A DNA stretch of 64,000 nt. Origin: Synechococcus sp. PCC 7336. GTDB taxonomy: Bacteria > Cyanobacteriota > Cyanobacteriia > Thermostichales > PCC-7336. Below are positions 37,714-63,803 of this stretch, one piece after another (the first letter of the stretch is position 1; every line of letters starts with the position of its first letter). Under the pieces are notes generated by a model. The model ran no database searches and was not told the DNA's origin. It worked only from the letters and a program-made list of their open reading frames with translations. Location: the NCBI RefSeq assembly GCF_000332275.1, contig NZ_CM001776.1, forward strand, positions 682,001 to 746,000. Direction: 5' to 3'. The position numbers and the translations under genes were made by a program.

Positions 37714-38241
37714 ATGGGACTTCAGACCCACACTGCATCGGATCGGCGATCGCCCTCTCGCACTAGTGGGGACAAACGGTTTCGCCTGCTGGACGCCACC
37801 ATGAAACAGCACCAATATCAGCAGGACGCGCTGATTGAGGTGTTGCATCGGGCGCAAGAATTGTTTGGCTATCTGGAAGAAGATTTACTCCTCTATATCG
37901 CCCACAGCCTGAAGCTGCCCCCCAGTCAGGTGTACGGAGTTGCAACCTTCTACCACTTTTTCTCCCTCAAGCGCAAAGGGGCACATACTTGCGTGGTGTG
38001 CATGGGAACAGCTTGCTACGTCAAAGGGGCTCCCACCGTATTGGGGGCAATCGAGCGATATGCGGGGATAGCGGCGGGGGAAACCACCGCCGACGGGGAA
38101 TTGTCTCTCGTCACTGCTCGATGTTTGGGAGCCTGCGGTGTCGCACCAGCTGTGGTGCTGGATGGGGAAACGGAGGGGCACCAAACCCCCGCACTGGCGA
38201 TCGCCCGCTTGGAGGAGTGCTTGCAGCGTGGATCTGAGTGA
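37714..38241 (+). CDS. hoxE: Bidirectional [NiFe]-hydrogenase diaphorase subunit HoxE
   Basis: 175 residues, NuoE-like. Iron-sulfur ligands are visible in [14 protein letters not shown] and [15 protein letters not shown]. The N-terminal extension up to [20 protein letters not shown] matches cyanobacterial HoxE, supporting ATG 37714 over ATG 37801. Passes electrons in the HoxEFU diaphorase between NAD(P)H/ferredoxin and the hydrogenase HoxYH. It overlaps hoxF by 14 bp. Confidence 0.93.
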
Positions 38242-39862
38242 ATTACAAGAGATTGCCGCCACGCGGCAGCGGCGTTTGGAGAAGCAGCGGATTTGTTGCT
38301 GCACGGTGGGGAGTTGTCTGTCTGCGGGAGGGGCGGCCCTGAAGGAGGCGCTGGAGGAAGCCGTCACCGAGGGGGGATTGGGGGGACAAGTCCAGGTGAG
38401 TGGGGTGGGTTGCATGGGGCTGTGTAGTAGAGGCCCTCTAGTCCGCATCGACCCGGACGAGCACTTATACGAAACTGTGCTGCCCGAGCGAGCCGAGGAG
38501 GTGGTTCGGGCTCTGGGGGGAGAAGCCGTCGAGCTGCGTCAAGGGGATCTCCAGCACCCGTTCTATACTCTGCAGCAGCGGATTGTCTTAGAAAACAGCG
38601 GCAAGATCGACCCCGAGGCGATCGAGGACTACATTGCAGCCCAAGGCTATCTAGCCCTGCATCGGGTGTTGCGGGAGATGGCAGCGGAGGCGGTGGTGGA
38701 AGAAATTGCCCGCAGCGGTTTGCGGGGACGCGGCGGGGCTGGCTATCCGACGGGGTTGAAATGGGCCACTGTGGCTAAAATGCCCCCCGGGCCGAAATAT
38801 GTCGTGTGTAATGCCGACGAAGGGGACCCCGGAGCCTTTATGGATCGCAGTGTGTTGGAAAGCGATCCCCATCGCGTCTTGGAGGGTATGGCGATCGCCG
38901 CCTATGCCGTGGGAGCCAGCCAAGGGTTTATTTACGTGCGGGGGGAATATCCGCTGGCGATCGGCCACCTGCAAACCGCGATTCGTCAAGCCCGCCGCTA
39001 CGGCTTGCTCGGCAGCCAAATTTTTGAATCGCCGTTCGATTTCCGCATTGACTTGCGCATTGGAGCTGGGGCATTTGTATGTGGCGAAGAGACCGCCCTG
39101 ATGGCCTCGATTGAAGGCAAGCGCGGCCTGCCCCGACCCCGACCTCCCTACCCGGCAGAGTCGGGCCTGTGGGGATGTCCCACCCTCATCAACAACGTCG
39201 AAACCTTTGCCAATATTCCCGCCATCATTCGCAGGGGAGCCGATTGGTTTGCCAGTATTGGCACCGATCGCAGCAAAGGCACTAAGGTGTTTTCCTTAGC
39301 GGGCAAGGTGCGCAATACTGGCTTAATCGAAGTGCCGATGGGAACTCCGCTGCGACAGATTGTGGAGGCAATGGGGGGTGGCGTTCCCGAGGGGGGAGCG
39401 GTGAAGGCCGTGCAGACGGGGGGGCCGTCGGGTGGGTGCATTCCGGCAGAGGCACTCGATACGCCTGTGGACTACGAGGCCCTGACCGAGCTGGGCTCCA
39501 TCATGGGATCGGGCGGCATGGTGGTGATGGATAGTGCCACCAACATGGTGGATGTGGCCAAGTTCTTTATGCAGTTTTGCATGGAAGAATCCTGCGGCAA
39601 GTGCATTCCCTGCCGCGCTGGCACCGTTCAGCTCTATCAACTGCTGGACAAAATCCGCTCGGGTCGGGGCTGTTTGGCGGATCTGGAGTTGCTCGAAGAT
39701 CTGTCCGATATGGTGAAATACACCAGTTTATGTGGATTGGGGCAGTCTGCCCCCAATCCGGTTTTCAGTACGCTGCGCCATTTCCGCGACGAGTATGTCG
39801 CGGCGATCGCCGCTCGCCATTCCCCATCCTCAGGAGGATCTTCAGATGCTCGATCGACCTAG
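38228..39862 (+). CDS. hoxF: Bidirectional hydrogenase diaphorase subunit HoxF
   Basis: About 544 residues. GTG 38228 ([17 protein letters not shown]) is preferred to an upstream ATG that runs inside hoxE; GGAGG lies 12 nt before it. A thioredoxin-like [2Fe-2S] domain ([13 protein letters not shown]) comes first, then the NuoF core: [16 protein letters not shown] for FMN, NADH site [16 protein letters not shown], and the [4Fe-4S] ligands [12 protein letters not shown]. Binds FMN and NAD(P)H. Confidence 0.95.
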
Positions 39863-40031
39863 GCTTCTCTTCTTTCTGTTCGGTGTTTTGGCCCTGGTCT
39901 TGGCCCTGTCATTCCTAGTGCTGTACCGACCGATTAGCTGCACCCCCGAACTGTCTCGGGAATGTACGACGCTCCTACCGTTCGACCTATCGGTGGGGTT
40001 GCCGGGAATGGGGGGGGAATATGGCCGTTAA
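39846..40031 (+). CDS. Small single-span membrane protein between hoxF and hoxU
   Basis: 61 residues. ATG 39846 has a strong AGGAGGAT sequence 7 nt upstream. It overlaps hoxF by 17 bp and hoxU by 11 bp, so it is embedded in the operon by translational coupling. The protein is one hydrophobic helix ([20 protein letters not shown], residues 8-27) followed by a short Cys-containing tail ([20 protein letters not shown]) that would face the outside if the N-terminus is cytoplasmic. No family known to me. Could tether the Hox complex to membrane. Confidence 0.6.
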
Positions 40032-40737
40032 AACCCTCACGATCGATGGCCAACTCATCACGGCTCGCGAGGGGGAAACCCTGTTGCAGGCTGCTCGCGA
40101 GGCGGGCATTGAGATTCCGACGCTGTGCTATTTAGACGGAGTTTCGGAGGTGGGAGCCTGTCGGCTGTGTCTGTGCGAAGTGGAGGGCCAATCCAAGCTC
40201 TTGCCCGCCTGCGTCACCCAAGTGGCGGAGGGGATGGAAGTCCGCACCGACAGCGAGCGGCTGCAACGGTATCGCCGCATGACTGTGGAGTTGCTGTTTG
40301 CGGAGGGCAACCATGTTTGTGCCGTTTGCGTGTCGAACGGCAACTGCGAATTGCAGGATTTGGCGATCGCCGTCGGGATGGATAGCGTGCGGTTTGCCTA
40401 CCAACATCCCCAACGATCGGTCGATATCTCTCACGAACGCTTCGGTCTCGATTTCAACCGCTGCATCCTCTGTACCCGCTGCATTCGGGTGTGTGACGAG
40501 CTCGAAGGGGCACACACTTGGGATATGGCCGGTCGCGGTCGCACCTCCCGCGTGATTGCGGACATGAATCAGCCTTGGGGAGAGGCCCAAAGCTGCACCT
40601 CCTGCGGCAAATGCGTCAGTGCCTGTCCGACGGGGGCGCTATTCAATCGCGGCTCCACCGTAGGGGAGATGGTCCACGACAAAGATCGCCTAGAGTTCAT
40701 TGCCAAGGCCCGTCAGAACAAAGAGTGGTTGATGTAG
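40021..40737 (+). CDS. hoxU: Bidirectional hydrogenase diaphorase subunit HoxU
   Basis: 238 residues. N-terminal [2Fe-2S] ferredoxin domain ([20 protein letters not shown], then [12 protein letters not shown]), His-Cys ligated cluster region ([15 protein letters not shown]), and two [4Fe-4S] sites ([13 protein letters not shown] and [16 protein letters not shown]). Links HoxF flavin to HoxY. Ends 8 bp before hoxY. Confidence 0.95.
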
Positions 40738-40745
40738 GAGATAGC

Positions 40746-41291
40746 ATGTCTAAGCTCAAACTAGCAACGGTGTGGTTGGCAGGATGCTCCGGCTGCCACA
40801 TGTCGTTGCTCGATTTAGATGAATGGCTATTCGAGTTAGCCAAACAGGTGGATCTGGTGTTTAGCCCTTTTATGGATACCAAAGACTATCCATCGGGGGT
40901 GGATGTGGTGTTGGTGGAAGGAGCGGTTGCCAATCGGGACAACTTAGAGATGATTTGGCAAGTGCGCGATCGCAGCCAATTTCTGATCTCGTTTGGCGAT
41001 TGTGCCGTCACGGGCAATGTCACGGCACTGCGCAATCCCTTGGGGGATGCTCAGCCCGTTTTAGAAAGAGCCTATGTGGAGATGGACAATCTCAATTCCG
41101 GCCTGCCCGACACGGGTGACATTCTGCCGCCCCTGCTCGATCGCGTCGAGCCCGTTCATGCGGTGGTGCCGGTGGATTTGTATCTGCCGGGATGTCCCCC
41201 TCCAGCCAGTCGAATTCGGGCGGCGATCGCGCCTCTGTTGGAGGGTAATGTCCCTCATTTAGCGGGACGAGAATTTATCAAATTTGGGTGA
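40746..41291 (+). CDS. hoxY: Bidirectional hydrogenase small subunit HoxY
   Basis: 181 residues. ATG 40746 preceded by GGAG; an upstream in-frame extension overlaps hoxU and is not used. GCSGCHMSLLD gives the first two ligands of the proximal [4Fe-4S] cluster; GDCAVTGN and YLPGCPPPASRI give the others. The short, single-cluster small subunit is typical of the bidirectional enzyme. Confidence 0.95.
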   Translation: MSKLKLATVWLAGCSGCHMSLLDLDEWLFELAKQVDLVFSPFMDTKDYPSGVDVVLVEGAVANRDNLEMIWQVRDRSQFLISFGDCAVTGNVTALRNPLGDAQPVLERAYVEMDNLNSGLPDTGDILPPLLDRVEPVHAVVPVDLYLPGCPPPASRIRAAIAPLLEGNVPHLAGREFIKFG

Positions 41292-41373
41292 GGTGGTTTG
41301 ACTTGAGCATCGTTTGACTTGAGCATCGCTCGATTTGCGATCGCAGTTTATAGACCCTACGGGGAGGCTAACA

Positions 41374-42012
41374 ATGCCAACAGCAGCAGAGATCATGACT
41401 CCAAATGCGATCGCCATTCGCGGTGCGGAAACCGTAGCTCGGGCGGTCGAACTGATGAAAGAGCATATGGTGAGCAGTCTATTAGTAGAGCGCCGCCATC
41501 CCCAAGATGCCTACGGCATTGTCACGGTCACCGATGTGATTTGTAAGGTGGTGGCTTACGGCAAAGATCCCAAGCAGGTCAAGGTTTACGAGATTATGTC
41601 GAAGCCCTGTATTGTCGTCAATCCCGATTTGGCCGTGGAATACGTGGCCCGCCTGTTTGCCGAAGTGGGCATTCGCAGCGCGCCGGTCATTCAAGGGGAT
41701 AGCGTCGGAATTGTTTCCGTCACTGACATTCTGCTCAAAACTGATGTTGTCAATCGCCCCCCTGCCGCTGACTTGGAAGAGCAACTGCAGGCTTCGGTCA
41801 ATCGAGCTGGGATGGTGGGGTCAGAAAAAGGATTGCTGGCTCCAGAGTCTAAACAAGCGTGGCGAGCGGTTGCAGACATCCAAGCAGAACTGGCTCACCA
41901 GCGGGCAGAGACTCCTGAGCAATCGGCGTTTGAAGAATATCTCGCAGCACATCCAGAGATGGCAGACACAGACGATTACGAGATGTTGTTAGAAGGATAT
42001 ATGGGGTTTTAA
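41374..42012 (+). CDS. CBS-domain pair protein in the hox operon
   Basis: 212 residues; ATG 41374 has GGGGAGG upstream. Two CBS motifs (TAAEIMTPNAIAIRG ... GIVTVTDVICKVVAYG and VYEIMSKPCIVVNPD ... GIVSVTDILLKTD) form one Bateman module that usually binds adenine nucleotides. The C-terminal 70 residues are helical (SKQAWRAVADIQAELAHQRA) without a named domain. Located between hoxY and hoxH in the same direction, it may sense energy charge for the hydrogenase. Confidence 0.85.
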   Translation: MPTAAEIMTPNAIAIRGAETVARAVELMKEHMVSSLLVERRHPQDAYGIVTVTDVICKVVAYGKDPKQVKVYEIMSKPCIVVNPDLAVEYVARLFAEVGIRSAPVIQGDSVGIVSVTDILLKTDVVNRPPAADLEEQLQASVNRAGMVGSEKGLLAPESKQAWRAVADIQAELAHQRAETPEQSAFEEYLAAHPEMADTDDYEMLLEGYMGF

Positions 42013-42105
42013 GGCTGGCAAAATTCTCCATCCCGAGGGATTTGAAACTCCCCTCACCTAGCCTTTAAACCTTATCCATATTAAGACCTGGAGTTTTCAG
42101 GCATT

Positions 42106-42272
42106 GCACTCGGCCCCCTAAATCCCCCACCAGTGGGGGACTTGTGAGAGTCTGTTGGCTTCGTTCTAGACCTTATAATGACCGCGATTCTCCAGTTCGT
42201 CTTCCTTGTCTCCAAACCCCAGCTAGCACTGTCGTCAAGTCCCCCAGAATGGGGGATTTAGGGGGCGAATGC
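42106..42272. mobile_element. MITE-like element with 38-bp terminal inverted repeats
   Basis: Left end 42106-42144 and right end 42236-42272 are inverted copies (core CCCCCTAAATCCCCCA, ending GGGGGACTTG), and each arm is itself palindromic. The 91-bp centre has no ORF. The CCCCCTAAATCCCCC/GGGGGATTTAGGGGG ends are widespread in cyanobacterial genomes. It lies in the 356-bp gap between the CBS gene and hoxH and could split the operon or add a regulatory hairpin. Confidence 0.75.
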
Positions 42273-42368
42273 AGCGATCGACAGCGTTAGTGAGGGGGAC
42301 TAAAAGGTGTCTCATTAAAACTACAGATTTCTGACTAGACTGGGTTTAGGCAAGAGGTTTATCCGTAT

Positions 42369-43817
42369 ATGTCTCGCACCGTCATTATCGACCCCGTCAC
42401 CCGCATTGAAGGTCATGCCAAAATCTCGATTTATCTCGACGATGCGGAAGAGGTATCGGGGGCAAAATTTCACGTGACGGAATTTCGCGGCTTTGAGAAA
42501 TTTTGCGAGGGCAGACCCTTTTGGGAGATGCCCGGTATTACGCCGCGAGTCTGCGGCATTTGTCCGGTCAGTCACCTGCTGGCATCCGCCAAAGCGGGCG
42601 ATCGCATTTTGTCCGTCGAGATTCCCGCCGCCGCCACAAAGCTGCGCAGATTGATTAATCTCGGCCAAATCGTCCAGTCCCACGCCCTCAGTTTTTTCCA
42701 TCTCAGTTCCCCCGACTTGCTCCTGGGCTTCGATAGCGATCCCGCTCGGCGGAATATCTTTGGCTTGATGGCGGCAGAACCGGAGCTATCCAGACAGGGG
42801 ATACGGTTGCGCCAATTTGGCCAGTCAGTCATTGAGGAGGTGGGGGGTCAAAAAATTCATCCCTCTTGGGCGGTGCCGGGAGGGGTGCGGCAAGCGCTGA
42901 CGGTGGCTGGACGCGATCGCCTGCGCGCCTGGATTCCCGAGGTACGGGAGACGACTTTGGCCGCACTGGAACGGCTGAAAGGCTTGCTCGATCGCTATGC
43001 CGAAGAAGCCAACATCTTCGGTAATTTTCCCTCTCTGTTTATGGGGTTAGTCAGCAGCAATGGCACTTGGGAGCATTACGGCGGCCAGCTCAGGTTTGTG
43101 GATAGTGGCGGTAATATCATTGCCGATCGCCTCGATCCCACTCGCTTTGAGGATTATATCGGCGAGGCAGTCGAGCCCACTTCCTACCTCAAGTCTCCCT
43201 ACTATCGCCCCCTCGGCTACCCCGATCGAGACGAGCACTGCCGGCTGGAAAGTGGCATGTATCGGGTGGGGCCTTTGGCACGCCTCAATGTTTGCGATCG
43301 CATGGGCACCCCACTCGCCGATCGCGAACTGGCAGAGTATCGAGAGCGAGGGGGCAGTACGGTCAATTCGTCGTTCTTCTATCACTACGCTCGGCTCATC
43401 GAAATCTTGGCAGCGATCGAGCGGATTGAAGGGTGGCTGGAGGAGGAGGATTTATTGAGCGATCGCCTGCGGGCGCGGGCGGATGTGAATCAGTTGGAAG
43501 GGGTTGGGGCGAGCGAAGCTCCTCGCGGCACGCTCTTTCATCACTACCGAGTGGACGATCGCGGCCTGCTGCGCAGCGTCAATCTGGTAATTGCGACGGG
43601 GCAAAATAGTTTGGCTATGAATCGGACGGTGACTCAAATTGCCCGCCATTACATTCACGGGCCGACCATTCCCGAAGGCATGTTGAATCGAGTCGAAGCG
43701 GGCATTCGTGCCTTCGATCCCTGTCTCAGTTGCTCCACCCATGCTGCCGGTATGCCCCTGCATATTCAGTTATTCCAGCCCGATGGTAGGTTGGCCGATG
43801 AAGCTTGGAGAGATTGA
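42369..43817 (+). CDS. hoxH: Bidirectional [NiFe]-hydrogenase large subunit HoxH
   Basis: 482 residues. Nickel-iron ligands are [10 protein letters not shown] (Cys62, Cys65) and [10 protein letters not shown] (Cys452, Cys455). The 24 residues after His458 are the C-terminal peptide removed by the HoxW protease once Ni is inserted; hoxW is in the window at 53.7 kb. Catalytic subunit for H2 oxidation/evolution. The 550 bp before it hold the MITE-like element and probably its own promoter. Confidence 0.97.
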
Positions 43818-59902: not shown

Positions 59903-62371
59903 GTGGATAGAACGCCCTCGCACTGTTCTCGACAAAGACTGCGCCTCACCCTCAGCGGCACCATTCAGGGGGTGGGGTTTCGTCCGTTCGTATACCGTCT
60001 CGCGATCGCTTTAGGGCTAGAGGGTTGGGTGCGCAATTCGGGCGAGGGCGTGCTGATCGAAGTTGAAGGGGAAAGTTCTCTACTGCACGAATTCGTTCGC
60101 CGACTCCAGTCGGACAAGCCGCCTGCGGCAGCGATCGCCCGCTGCCGAGAGGACTGGCTAGAACCCTTTGGCTATAGAAATTTCAGCATTCGCTCCAGCC
60201 ATTCGGGCCTCATAACAGCGGCCATCTCGCCAGATTTAGCCACCTGCCCCGAATGCCTGCAAGACATCCGCGATCCCGACAACCGTCGCTATCGATATCC
60301 GTTCGCCAACTGCACCCAGTGCGGTCCCCGTTTCAGCCTCCTGCAAGGGCTCCCCTACGATCGCGATCGCACCACCATGTCTGACTTTCACATGTGTGCT
60401 GCTTGCGAGACCGAATATCGCGATCCGGGCAATCGCCGCTTCCACGCCCAACCCAATGCCTGTCCTCGGTGTGGCCCCCATATAGAACTGTGGGATCGAC
60501 AGGGGAATGCTCTTGCCGACTGGGACGATGCCCTATTCGATGCAATCGGAGCGCTGCGCCAAGCCAAAATAGTCGCGGTGAAAGGCTTGGGGGGATTTCA
60601 CTTGATGGCGATCGCCGAGAGCGAATCTGCAGTCCGGCAATTGCGCTTGGCCAAGCAACGACCGGACAAGCCGTTTGCACTCATGTATCCCTCTCTCGAA
60701 GCGGTCCGTGTCCACTGTCATCTATCCGATGTAGAAGCTCGACTGTTGCGATCGCCTGCCGCGCCCATCGTCCTGCTGCAGCGCAGACAAGCCACCCCTG
60801 CCCCGAACCTAGCCCCCAATATTGCCCCCGAAACTCCATATTTGGGCGTCATGCTGCCCTACACCCCACTGCACCACCTCTTGATGCAGGAGTTGAGCTG
60901 TCCGGTGGTGGCCACGAGCGGCAACCTGGGGGGAGACCCCCTCTGCATTGATGAATCAGTAGCGCTGCGAACGTTGGCGGGAGTTGCCGATCTGTTTCTG
61001 GTTCACAACCGTCCGATTGCTCGAGCCGTGGACGATTCGGTCGTTTGCGGGGTGGCGGGGCGAGAGATGGTTTTGCGGCGAGCTCGCGGCTATGCTCCCT
61101 TGCCGATTTCTGCTGGGTTCGATGGCGCTGCATTGCCCTCTCCCCCGGCCCCTCTCCCCCAGGGAGAGGGGAGAAACAGTCTGAAATCCTCAATCTGCGG
61201 TTCGGTTCCCCTTCCCTCGGAATTACGGCTGACGCCACGCTTCGCGAGGGGGGAAGGGGCTAGGGGATGTCTGCTGGCTTTGGGGGGACATCTGAAGAAT
61301 ACTGTCGCGGTGGCGGTGGCAGGACAGGCGATCGCGAGCCAGCATCTGGGGGATTTGCAAACGGTGGCCGCCGTCGAGCATTACGAACGGGCGATCGCCG
61401 ATCTCGAAAGCTTCTACGACCTGCAGCCCGTGGCTGTGGCCTGCGATTTACATCCCGACTACCGCTCTACTCACATGGCCGAGGGGCTGGGCTTGCCGGT
61501 CATTCGGGTTCAGCACCATTACGCCCACGTCTTGGCCTGCATGGCTGACAATCAACTTCTGAATTCGATGGACTCTCCCATGCTCGGAGTTGCGTGGGAT
61601 GGTGCCGGCTACGGGAGCGATGGGACGATCTGGGGGGGCGAGTTTTTGCGCGTCGCGGAGGCGGGATTCGAACGGTTCGCTCGCCTGCGCCCATTTCGGC
61701 TGCCGGGGGGCGAACGGGCTATCAAAGAACCCAGGCGATCGGCGATCGGGTTGCTGTACGAGGTGTTTGGGGAGGCGCTGTTCGAGCAGCGGGATTGTAG
61801 GGGCCTTCAGGCATTTAGCGATCGCGATCTCCCAGTGTTGCGGGCGATGTTGCGGAATTCCTATCGCGCGCCGCTTGCCTCCAGTGTCGGTCGCCTATTT
61901 GATGCGATCGCCTCAATTCTGGGCTTAAAACACATTGCTACGTTTGAAGGTCAAGCGGCAATGGCTTTAGAGGCTCAGCTGGCGGGAGTTCGCACTTCGG
62001 CAAGCTACGAGATCCCTTTGATAGGACTGGATGCTCCAGAACCAGCAAGTTTGGATTGGACCGCACTCGTCACAGCCCTGTTGAGCGACGCTCGGGCAGG
62101 TTTGTCATTAGGACAGATTGTGGCGAAGTTTCATAATGGATTGGTGGAGGCGATCGTCTCTGTTGCTAAAGCGTCGCAATGCGATCGGGTGTTATTGACG
62201 GGTGGCTGCTTTCAAAATCGCTACCTGCTCCAGCGGGTGACTCAGCGCTTGCGAGAGGAATCGTTGCACCCCTACTGGCACCGCCAGATTCCGCCAAATG
62301 ATGGGGGAATTGCGATCGGACAGCTTGTGGCTGCGGCCAATGTTCTACAGCGCGGTCCAGACAGGGTGTAA
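59903..62371 (+). CDS. hypF: [NiFe]-hydrogenase maturation carbamoyltransferase HypF
   Basis: 822 residues, GTG start. N-terminal acylphosphatase (TLSGTIQGVGFRPFVYRLAI), zinc fingers (CPECLQDI; CTQCGP; CAACETEY; CPRCGP), YrdC-like domain (KIVAVKGLGGFHLMAIAESE, then CPVVATSGNLGGDPLCID) and Kae1/HypF-C domain (LACMADNQLL, DGTIWGGEFLRV, LLTGGCFQNRYLLQRV). It makes the carbamoyl-AMP used for cyanide ligands of the NiFe site. It is 40-50 residues longer than usual because a palindromic element is inserted in frame at about residues 411-456. Followed at 35 bp by hypC. Confidence 0.94.
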   Translation: MDRTPSHCSRQRLRLTLSGTIQGVGFRPFVYRLAIALGLEGWVRNSGEGVLIEVEGESSLLHEFVRRLQSDKPPAAAIARCREDWLEPFGYRNFSIRSSHSGLITAAISPDLATCPECLQDIRDPDNRRYRYPFANCTQCGPRFSLLQGLPYDRDRTTMSDFHMCAACETEYRDPGNRRFHAQPNACPRCGPHIELWDRQGNALADWDDALFDAIGALRQAKIVAVKGLGGFHLMAIAESESAVRQLRLAKQRPDKPFALMYPSLEAVRVHCHLSDVEARLLRSPAAPIVLLQRRQATPAPNLAPNIAPETPYLGVMLPYTPLHHLLMQELSCPVVATSGNLGGDPLCIDESVALRTLAGVADLFLVHNRPIARAVDDSVVCGVAGREMVLRRARGYAPLPISAGFDGAALPSPPAPLPQGEGRNSLKSSICGSVPLPSELRLTPRFARGEGARGCLLALGGHLKNTVAVAVAGQAIASQHLGDLQTVAAVEHYERAIADLESFYDLQPVAVACDLHPDYRSTHMAEGLGLPVIRVQHHYAHVLACMADNQLLNSMDSPMLGVAWDGAGYGSDGTIWGGEFLRVAEAGFERFARLRPFRLPGGERAIKEPRRSAIGLLYEVFGEALFEQRDCRGLQAFSDRDLPVLRAMLRNSYRAPLASSVGRLFDAIASILGLKHIATFEGQAAMALEAQLAGVRTSASYEIPLIGLDAPEPASLDWTALVTALLSDARAGLSLGQIVAKFHNGLVEAIVSVAKASQCDRVLLTGGCFQNRYLLQRVTQRLREESLHPYWHRQIPPNDGGIAIGQLVAAANVLQRGPDRV
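61133..61270. repeat. Bipartite palindromic element inserted in hypF
   Basis: First module CCCTCTCCCCCGGCCCCTCT to GGGAGAGGGG, linker GAAACAGTCTGAAATCC ... CGGTTCGG, second module TTCCCCTTCCCTCG to GAGGGGGGAAGGGGC. The DNA matches the family in both halves and the linker. It codes for ALPSPPAPLPQGEGRNSLKS and about 25 further residues of low complexity, without a stop or frameshift. Confidence 0.85.
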
Positions 62372-62406: not shown

Positions 62407-62643
62407 GTGTGCTTAGCCGTTCCAGGCAAAATTCTCAGTATTCTCGAAGGAGACGATCCCCTGCTGCGCGCGGGCAAAGTGAGTTTCGGCGGAGCGGTCA
62501 AAACCATTAGCTTGGCCTATGTGCCCGAGGCCAATGTGGGCGATTATGCTCTGGTTCATGCGGGGTTTGCACTGGCGATCGTGGATGAGTGGGAGGCGGA
62601 GCAAACGTTGCGAGACGTGCAGCAAATGCAGGCCGGTCAATAG
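62407..62643 (+). CDS. hypC: Hydrogenase assembly chaperone HypC
   Basis: 78 residues, GTG start giving MCLAVPGKILSILEGDD; Cys2 is the essential ligand that binds the Fe(CN)2CO group and HoxH. VKTISLAYVPEANVGDYALV and HAGFALAIVDEWEAEQT complete the family. It carries the iron centre from HypD to the large subunit. Immediately downstream of hypF; a terminator lies at 62832. Confidence 0.95.
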   Translation: MCLAVPGKILSILEGDDPLLRAGKVSFGGAVKTISLAYVPEANVGDYALVHAGFALAIVDEWEAEQTLRDVQQMQAGQ

Positions 62644-63272: not shown

Positions 63273-63655
63273 CTATAAGGTGTCTAGATTTTGAACGACC
63301 CAGCGCCGCATCAATTCTACGGTGTAGATATAGGTTCCATCCGCCTGTCTGGCAATGACATCGTGGCTTTCTAAGGTGGCGATCGCCGCTTGACTTTCTG
63401 CTGCGGTTAAGCCCAATCTCTCGAAGAGTTCGGCGAGGGAGAGAGGGGTGTGGCTGAGGGCTTTGAGGATCTGGGTTTGCCCTTGAGGGGCGGTTGTTTC
63501 TGCTTGTCCCCAGACTCCTGCGAAGTAGGCGTTGCCGTCACGGTAGAAGTTGGGGGCATTGATGACGGCGTTGACATCTTCGAGGAAGAAGCGGCGATCG
63601 CGATCTCCCAGTGCTGCTAACCCTGTTGCGAAATTCCTACAATTCTGGGGGAAGG
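63273..63655 (-). pseudogene. C-terminal fragment of a STAND/AAA-type ATPase, fused to a palindromic element
   Basis: From about 63655 down the frame reads ALGDRDRRFFLEDVNAVINA, then PQGQTQILKALSHTPLSLAE, LFERLGLTAAESQAAIATLE and YTVELMRRWVVQN. The last part is a winged helix typical of the C-terminus of cyanobacterial ATPases. No P-loop domain precedes it: going upstream the frame runs into the palindromic element (63690-63735), so the ORF's first codons (ALHGPHPRPLSLEERGATAS) are element sequence. A dead fragment. Confidence 0.6.
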
Positions 63656-63689
63656 GGAACAGAACCGTAGATTGCAGGTTTGAGGCTGT

Positions 63690-63735
63690 TGCTCCCCTCT
63701 CCTCCAGGGAGAGGGGTCGGGGGTGAGGGCCATGC
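63690..63735. repeat. Palindromic element copy next to the ATPase fragment
   Basis: CCCTCTCCTCCAGGGAGAGG core followed by GGTCGGGGGTGAGGGCCATG. Left of it (63650-63690) is the family linker and the edge of a second module (GGGGGAAGGGGAACAGAACC), so it is a near-complete bipartite copy. Confidence 0.75.
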
Positions 63736-63803
63736 AGAGCCATCGAATTCAGGTCGTTAAGGGTGCGATCCTCCCTTCAGGGGGCTTAACCGTACTAATA
63801 GTG

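Follow-up and report, generated by a model that had tools for sequence, protein, structure and literature searches.

A probable IS982-type MITE insertion, read in frame within the interdomain linker of HypF in Synechococcus sp. PCC 7336

The hypF gene (59903–62371, plus strand) encodes a carbamoyltransferase of 822 amino acids and is located in a window of 64 kb, which is the whole stretch of DNA analysed here. The protein matches TIGR00143 at 811 bits, and all five domain matches are present, namely acylphosphatase, two zinc fingers, YrdC-like, and Kae1-like. hypC (62407–62643, plus strand) is located directly 3′ of hypF. NiFe hydrogenases require HypF for maturation. HypF is not known as essential for life, and its description as an essential enzyme in an earlier note on this DNA is therefore too strong. 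The genes of a hox bidirectional NiFe hydrogenase (37714–43817, plus strand) are found in the same window, with hoxE starting at 37714, hoxF at 38138, hoxU at 40021, hoxY at 40518, and hoxH at 42369. The HoxH match of this operon is above the cutoff, and the hydrogenase encoded here is the likely client of HypF. A gene for a CBS-CP12 protein (41335–42012) sits between hoxY and hoxH. According to a 2016 survey, Synechococcus PCC 7336 lacks some of the hyp genes (PMC5186783). Given this survey, hydrogenase maturation in this organism may be unusual, and the missing genes call for caution in claiming that it proceeds normally.

Within hypF, a MITE-derived insertion of 153 nt occupies positions 61117–61269 (plus strand) and corresponds to about positions 7–162 of a 189-bp consensus, so that the hypF copy is about 6 nt short at the left end and 27 nt short at the right. 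The earlier note had placed an element at 61133–61270; an element is indeed found there, and its true span is slightly longer, with a 16-nt remnant of the left terminal repeat (GTTCGATGGCGCTGCA) preceding that position. The insertion is read in frame as HypF residues ~406–455, a Pro/Gly/Arg-rich stretch of about 50 residues that includes LPSPPAPLPQGEGRNSLKSSICGSVPLPSELRLTPRFARGEGARG. By their Pfam limits, the YrdC-like domain extends to residue 393 and the Kae1-like domain begins at residue 456, which places the insert between these two domains, as first proposed. The insertion contains two modules. Module 1 (61136–61170, minus strand) is a BoxC/TM-ECO-like hairpin with a third, G-rich strand. 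Module 2 (61208–61269, plus strand) is composed of the hairpin CCCCTTCCC...GGGAAGGGG with a conserved loop segment, TTACGGCTGACGCCACGCTTCGCG, followed by CTAGGGGATG; on inspection of the sequence, this is another hairpin, whose third strand is of the same kind as that of module 1. The folding energy of the hypF copy is ordinary compared with shuffled sequences (z −1.2 and −1.5, as DNA or RNA), so energy alone says little.

Apart from the insert, HypF is intact, in agreement with the earlier note. When aligned with its relatives, this protein deviates at only 5 of 214 highly conserved columns, compared with 0–11 in other members. An AlphaFold2 model built with 46 sequences has a mean pLDDT of 86 and a pTM of 0.88; its domains fold well, and pLDDT values below 50 are confined to residues 408–410, residues 414–452, and the termini. 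The inserted residues are thus predicted to form a disordered loop that leaves folding undisturbed. The insertion of a mobile element in hypF, together with the hyp genes reported missing in PMC5186783, could also mean that the gene is undergoing inactivation and that, as it decays, its frame is still open for a short time by coincidence. This explanation is very unlikely, since the reading frame runs through the insert without a stop or frameshift, all domains and the conserved positions are kept as in other HypF proteins, and the hox operon with its HoxH match is present in the same window.

The alignment with relatives that the earlier note had suggested was carried out with 98 HypF sequences, including this one, from other cyanobacteria and many other phyla. 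Residues 406–450 fall in columns that are absent from most relatives, and the insert sequence is absent from the HypF of all 97 relatives compared. No distant cyanobacterium among them has the same residues, and ancestral protein sequence is therefore rejected as the source of the insert. The linker between RGYAPLPI and LALGGHLKN is mostly 5–10 residues long in the relatives, and solved HypF structures align up to residue 403–407 and resume at 454–458 with nothing between. The order-mates searched have no HypF, and this genome is the sole representative of its family among those compared; therefore, the insertion is not closely datable.

An extended linker occurs in only about 5–6 of the 98 HypF proteins. 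The HypF of Candidatus Acetothermia (L153) carries another repeat in the same linker, with 66 matching places in that genome, and the HypF of Pseudanabaena SR411 (L187) carries yet another, with 62 matching places in its own genome. A short repeat of the same motif type, which likewise matches many places in its own genome, is found in the same linker of a Bipolaricaulota HypF (L155), and possibly another repeat in that of Cyanosarcina (L170). Inserts of similar length are also found at other HypF loops, such as those near positions 298 and 584, and the proteins of L155 and L170 have inserts at three loops each, which weakens the idea that the linker is a unique hot spot. Two related cyanobacterial genomes (L046 and L047) encode HypF with inserts of more than 100 residues in the region of the acylphosphatase domain, apparently of another kind. 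The picture is one of tolerant HypF loops that are hit by whichever repeat abounds in the genome.

The presence of unrelated dispersed repeats in one and the same linker (L153, L155, L187, and possibly L170) could also be read as adaptive, in that a flexible linker or strong mRNA hairpins might tune HypF activity or expression and selection might favour reuse of this linker. This is quite improbable. Extended linkers are few, inserts of similar length are found at other loops, and the linker sequences are unrelated with no common peptide kept, all of which fits loop tolerance. A broader proposal, in which translated mobile repeats have inserted again and again into the interdomain loops of HypF in different phyla and the added disordered linker has at times been co-opted for the function or regulation of hydrogenase maturation, is likewise improbable.

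The element belongs to an interspersed family, as the earlier note had claimed. DNA, pattern, and encoded-peptide searches, after clustering, located copies at about 122 places in its own genome. The family is well beyond what chance would produce. A 138-nt query found 49 matching places, with E values down to 1e-46 excluding self. There were 47 hits for the core pattern and 73 and 41 for the terminal-repeat patterns, whereas the reversed-pattern controls gave 0 each. Full-length copies are ~165–190 bp long and extend from ACCTGAGTTCGAT to GTCGAACTGACGT. The terminal inverted repeat ACSTSAGTTCGAY occurs exactly 131 times, compared with 1 occurrence of its reversed control, and many full-length copies are flanked by direct repeats of 6–8 bp, such as agggta, tgtaaa, and tagcaac. 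The copies are therefore short and numerous, lack a transposase, and have terminal inverted repeats and target-site duplications, which are the features of a MITE. The term palindromic repeat, used in the earlier note, holds for the two hairpin modules, but the whole is a MITE.

A partial copy of the element (63649–63730, minus strand) lies at the 5′ end of an ORF on the minus strand (63273–63743), whose N-terminus it may lengthen in a different frame. An IS1182-family element (L237, 1048–2862) sits inside the hairpin loop of one MITE copy, and an IS4/Tn5-like element (L252, 278–1950) is similarly located inside the hairpin loop of another. Both were considered as the parent of the MITE and rejected because they are nested in the loop and not at the ends. 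Several half copies (L013, L018, L021, L024, L026, L028, and L029) stop at the same hairpin loop. It is as if the MITE hairpin were a preferred target of other insertion sequences.

In another cyanobacterium (L264), two ends of the same type as those of the element lie 1310 bp apart, are flanked by a 7-bp duplication (tgtcaag), and bound a complete insertion sequence that encodes an IS982-family transposase (NF033520, 165 bits; PF13612). The element can therefore be named an IS982-type MITE. It shares with IS982-family insertion sequences and MITEs the terminal repeats ACSTSAGTTCGAY and a duplication of 6–8 bp. In contrast to the element of L264, it is without a transposase and contains two hairpin/triplex modules that the L264 copy lacks. 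No IS982 transposase was found within the loci of this genome that were examined. Of 386 genomes of the phylum that were compared, no other showed the full element, while the terminal repeat ACGTGAGTTCGAY is present in 54. The 44-bp hairpin module occurs in 65 of the 386, with only partial matches elsewhere than in this genome, and without these terminal repeats it is frequent among cyanobacteria and also in some other phyla. The module may be older than the MITE, and the two may be layered.

Module 1 resembles the BoxC/PIT/TM-ECO intrastrand triplex (PMC4666352), as it fits CCCTCNCCC-loop-GGGNGAGGG-loop-GGGNGAGGG. The published BoxC/TM-ECO pattern, with a second loop of 3 nt, does not match module 1, in which this loop is 5 nt; the match was obtained only when a second loop of up to 5 nt was allowed, and 0 matches are expected in shuffled windows. 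The setting is also different, because the module here is part of a transposable element within a coding gene, whereas in E. coli MG1655 the sequences are always intergenic (PMC4666352).

Palindromic modules, one of which is common on its own in cyanobacteria and in some other phyla, could also point to a true REP of the GTAG/CGTC class, spread by RAYT and unrelated to IS982. REPs of this class have been described inside ORFs, and in the case of recB two species carry one at nearly the same position (PMC3733652). They resemble the element here in being interspersed palindromes inside genes of known function. In contrast, they are 20–40 bp long and RAYT-linked, whereas full-length copies of this element exceed a single REP palindrome several-fold in length and enclose the module in terminal inverted repeats with target duplications, and an IS982 insertion sequence has the same ends. 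Judged by its 189-bp consensus, terminal repeats, and duplications, the element falls outside the REP class, and a REP origin is highly unlikely.

The hypF copy departs from the full-length MITE in that both ends are trimmed and its flanking repeat is inconsistent with the frame. The 8-bp direct repeat TCTGCTGG is found at 61109–61116, abutting the insertion, and at 61270–61277 (both plus strand), and might be a target-site duplication; a direct repeat of at least 7 at these junctions has a chance probability of about 0.0013. The two copies are spaced 161 nt apart, which is 2 mod 3, so simple excision would leave hypF out of frame. A simple target-duplication history is therefore not favoured for hypF. 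Either the repeat is a coincidence that followed a right-end deletion, or a small indel came after insertion.

The element is also found inside at least three other proteins besides HypF, in the same reading frame. In the condensation domain of a PKS-NRPS (L092), a 165-bp element retains both ends and is flanked by a 6-bp target duplication with one mismatch (GGTCCA/GGCCCA). Element and duplication together amount to 171 nt, or 57 codons; when the flanks are joined as an empty site, a continuous condensation domain reads through, and a PDB homologue of the domain has a gap matching the insert. The element is also translated at an NRPS adenylation-methyltransferase junction (L093) and within a membrane protein that matches PMT weakly (L091). 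An AraC-type regulator (L099, 1740–2195) has its usual C-terminus replaced by element-derived residues, and a HicA-like protein (L102, 1170–1634) has lost its C-terminal part, with an element copy supplying the tail.

All survivors are in one frame because the other frames end the protein, and six-frame translation of the consensus showed only one fully open frame. This needs no special design, since at least one open frame is present in 81% of shuffled elements, and a frame that evolved to be open was rejected on this ground. In addition, 9 of 18 copies not known to lie in genes are also open, which makes the open frame a weak sign of selection.

Earlier papers describe RPE inserted in frame in Rickettsia, MITE fusions, and REPs located inside ORFs (PMC10969869, PMC3733652, PMC5896051). 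Neither this element nor repeats inside HypF were mentioned in the literature searched. The earlier note had proposed a cyanobacterial counterpart of RPE. Like RPE (PMC10969869, PMC3733652), which are palindromic, about 100–150 bp long, and in frame in unrelated protein genes, the element adds tens of residues that are apparently tolerated by protein structure, and it is in frame in HypF, a PKS-NRPS, an NRPS, and a PMT-like protein. In contrast, the element here would be an IS982-type MITE, and few in-frame gene copies are known among its about 122 places; in the first report on RPE the share was nearly half. That other bacteria carry unrelated repeats in this HypF linker also indicates that the parallel holds as an analogy in working and not as kinship.

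Together, these data make it very probable that an IS982-type MITE moved into hypF, is translated in a tolerant linker, and was kept as neutral baggage. A non-autonomous MITE with IS982-type terminal repeats and two hairpin/triplex modules would have transposed into hypF, presumably mobilised by an IS982-type transposase, and would have happened to possess one stop-free reading frame. The copy would then have lost parts of both ends, in an order that we infer, while the downstream hypF frame was kept. The ~50 added residues would form a disordered loop in the short linker that joins the YrdC-like domain to the Kae1-like domain, and a loop that does not disturb folding would be tolerated and retained. 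The insert is presumably translated and the protein presumably stable. No evidence of function was found for the insert, and the insertion is most likely neutral.

The HypF insertion is a clear and well-supported new case of a kind already known from Rickettsia and other bacteria. It indicates that palindromic mobile elements are translated outside intracellular Rickettsia as well, since one MITE family has given rise to inserts in at least four proteins of a cyanobacterium that is free-living and has a genome of 5 Mb. The PKS-NRPS copy retains both ends and the duplication, which makes the mechanism directly visible. A widespread triplex-type hairpin module is now linked to a transposable element with IS982 ends. 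Because unrelated repeats are found in the same HypF linker across phyla, HypF is a handy test protein for the tolerance of translated repeats.
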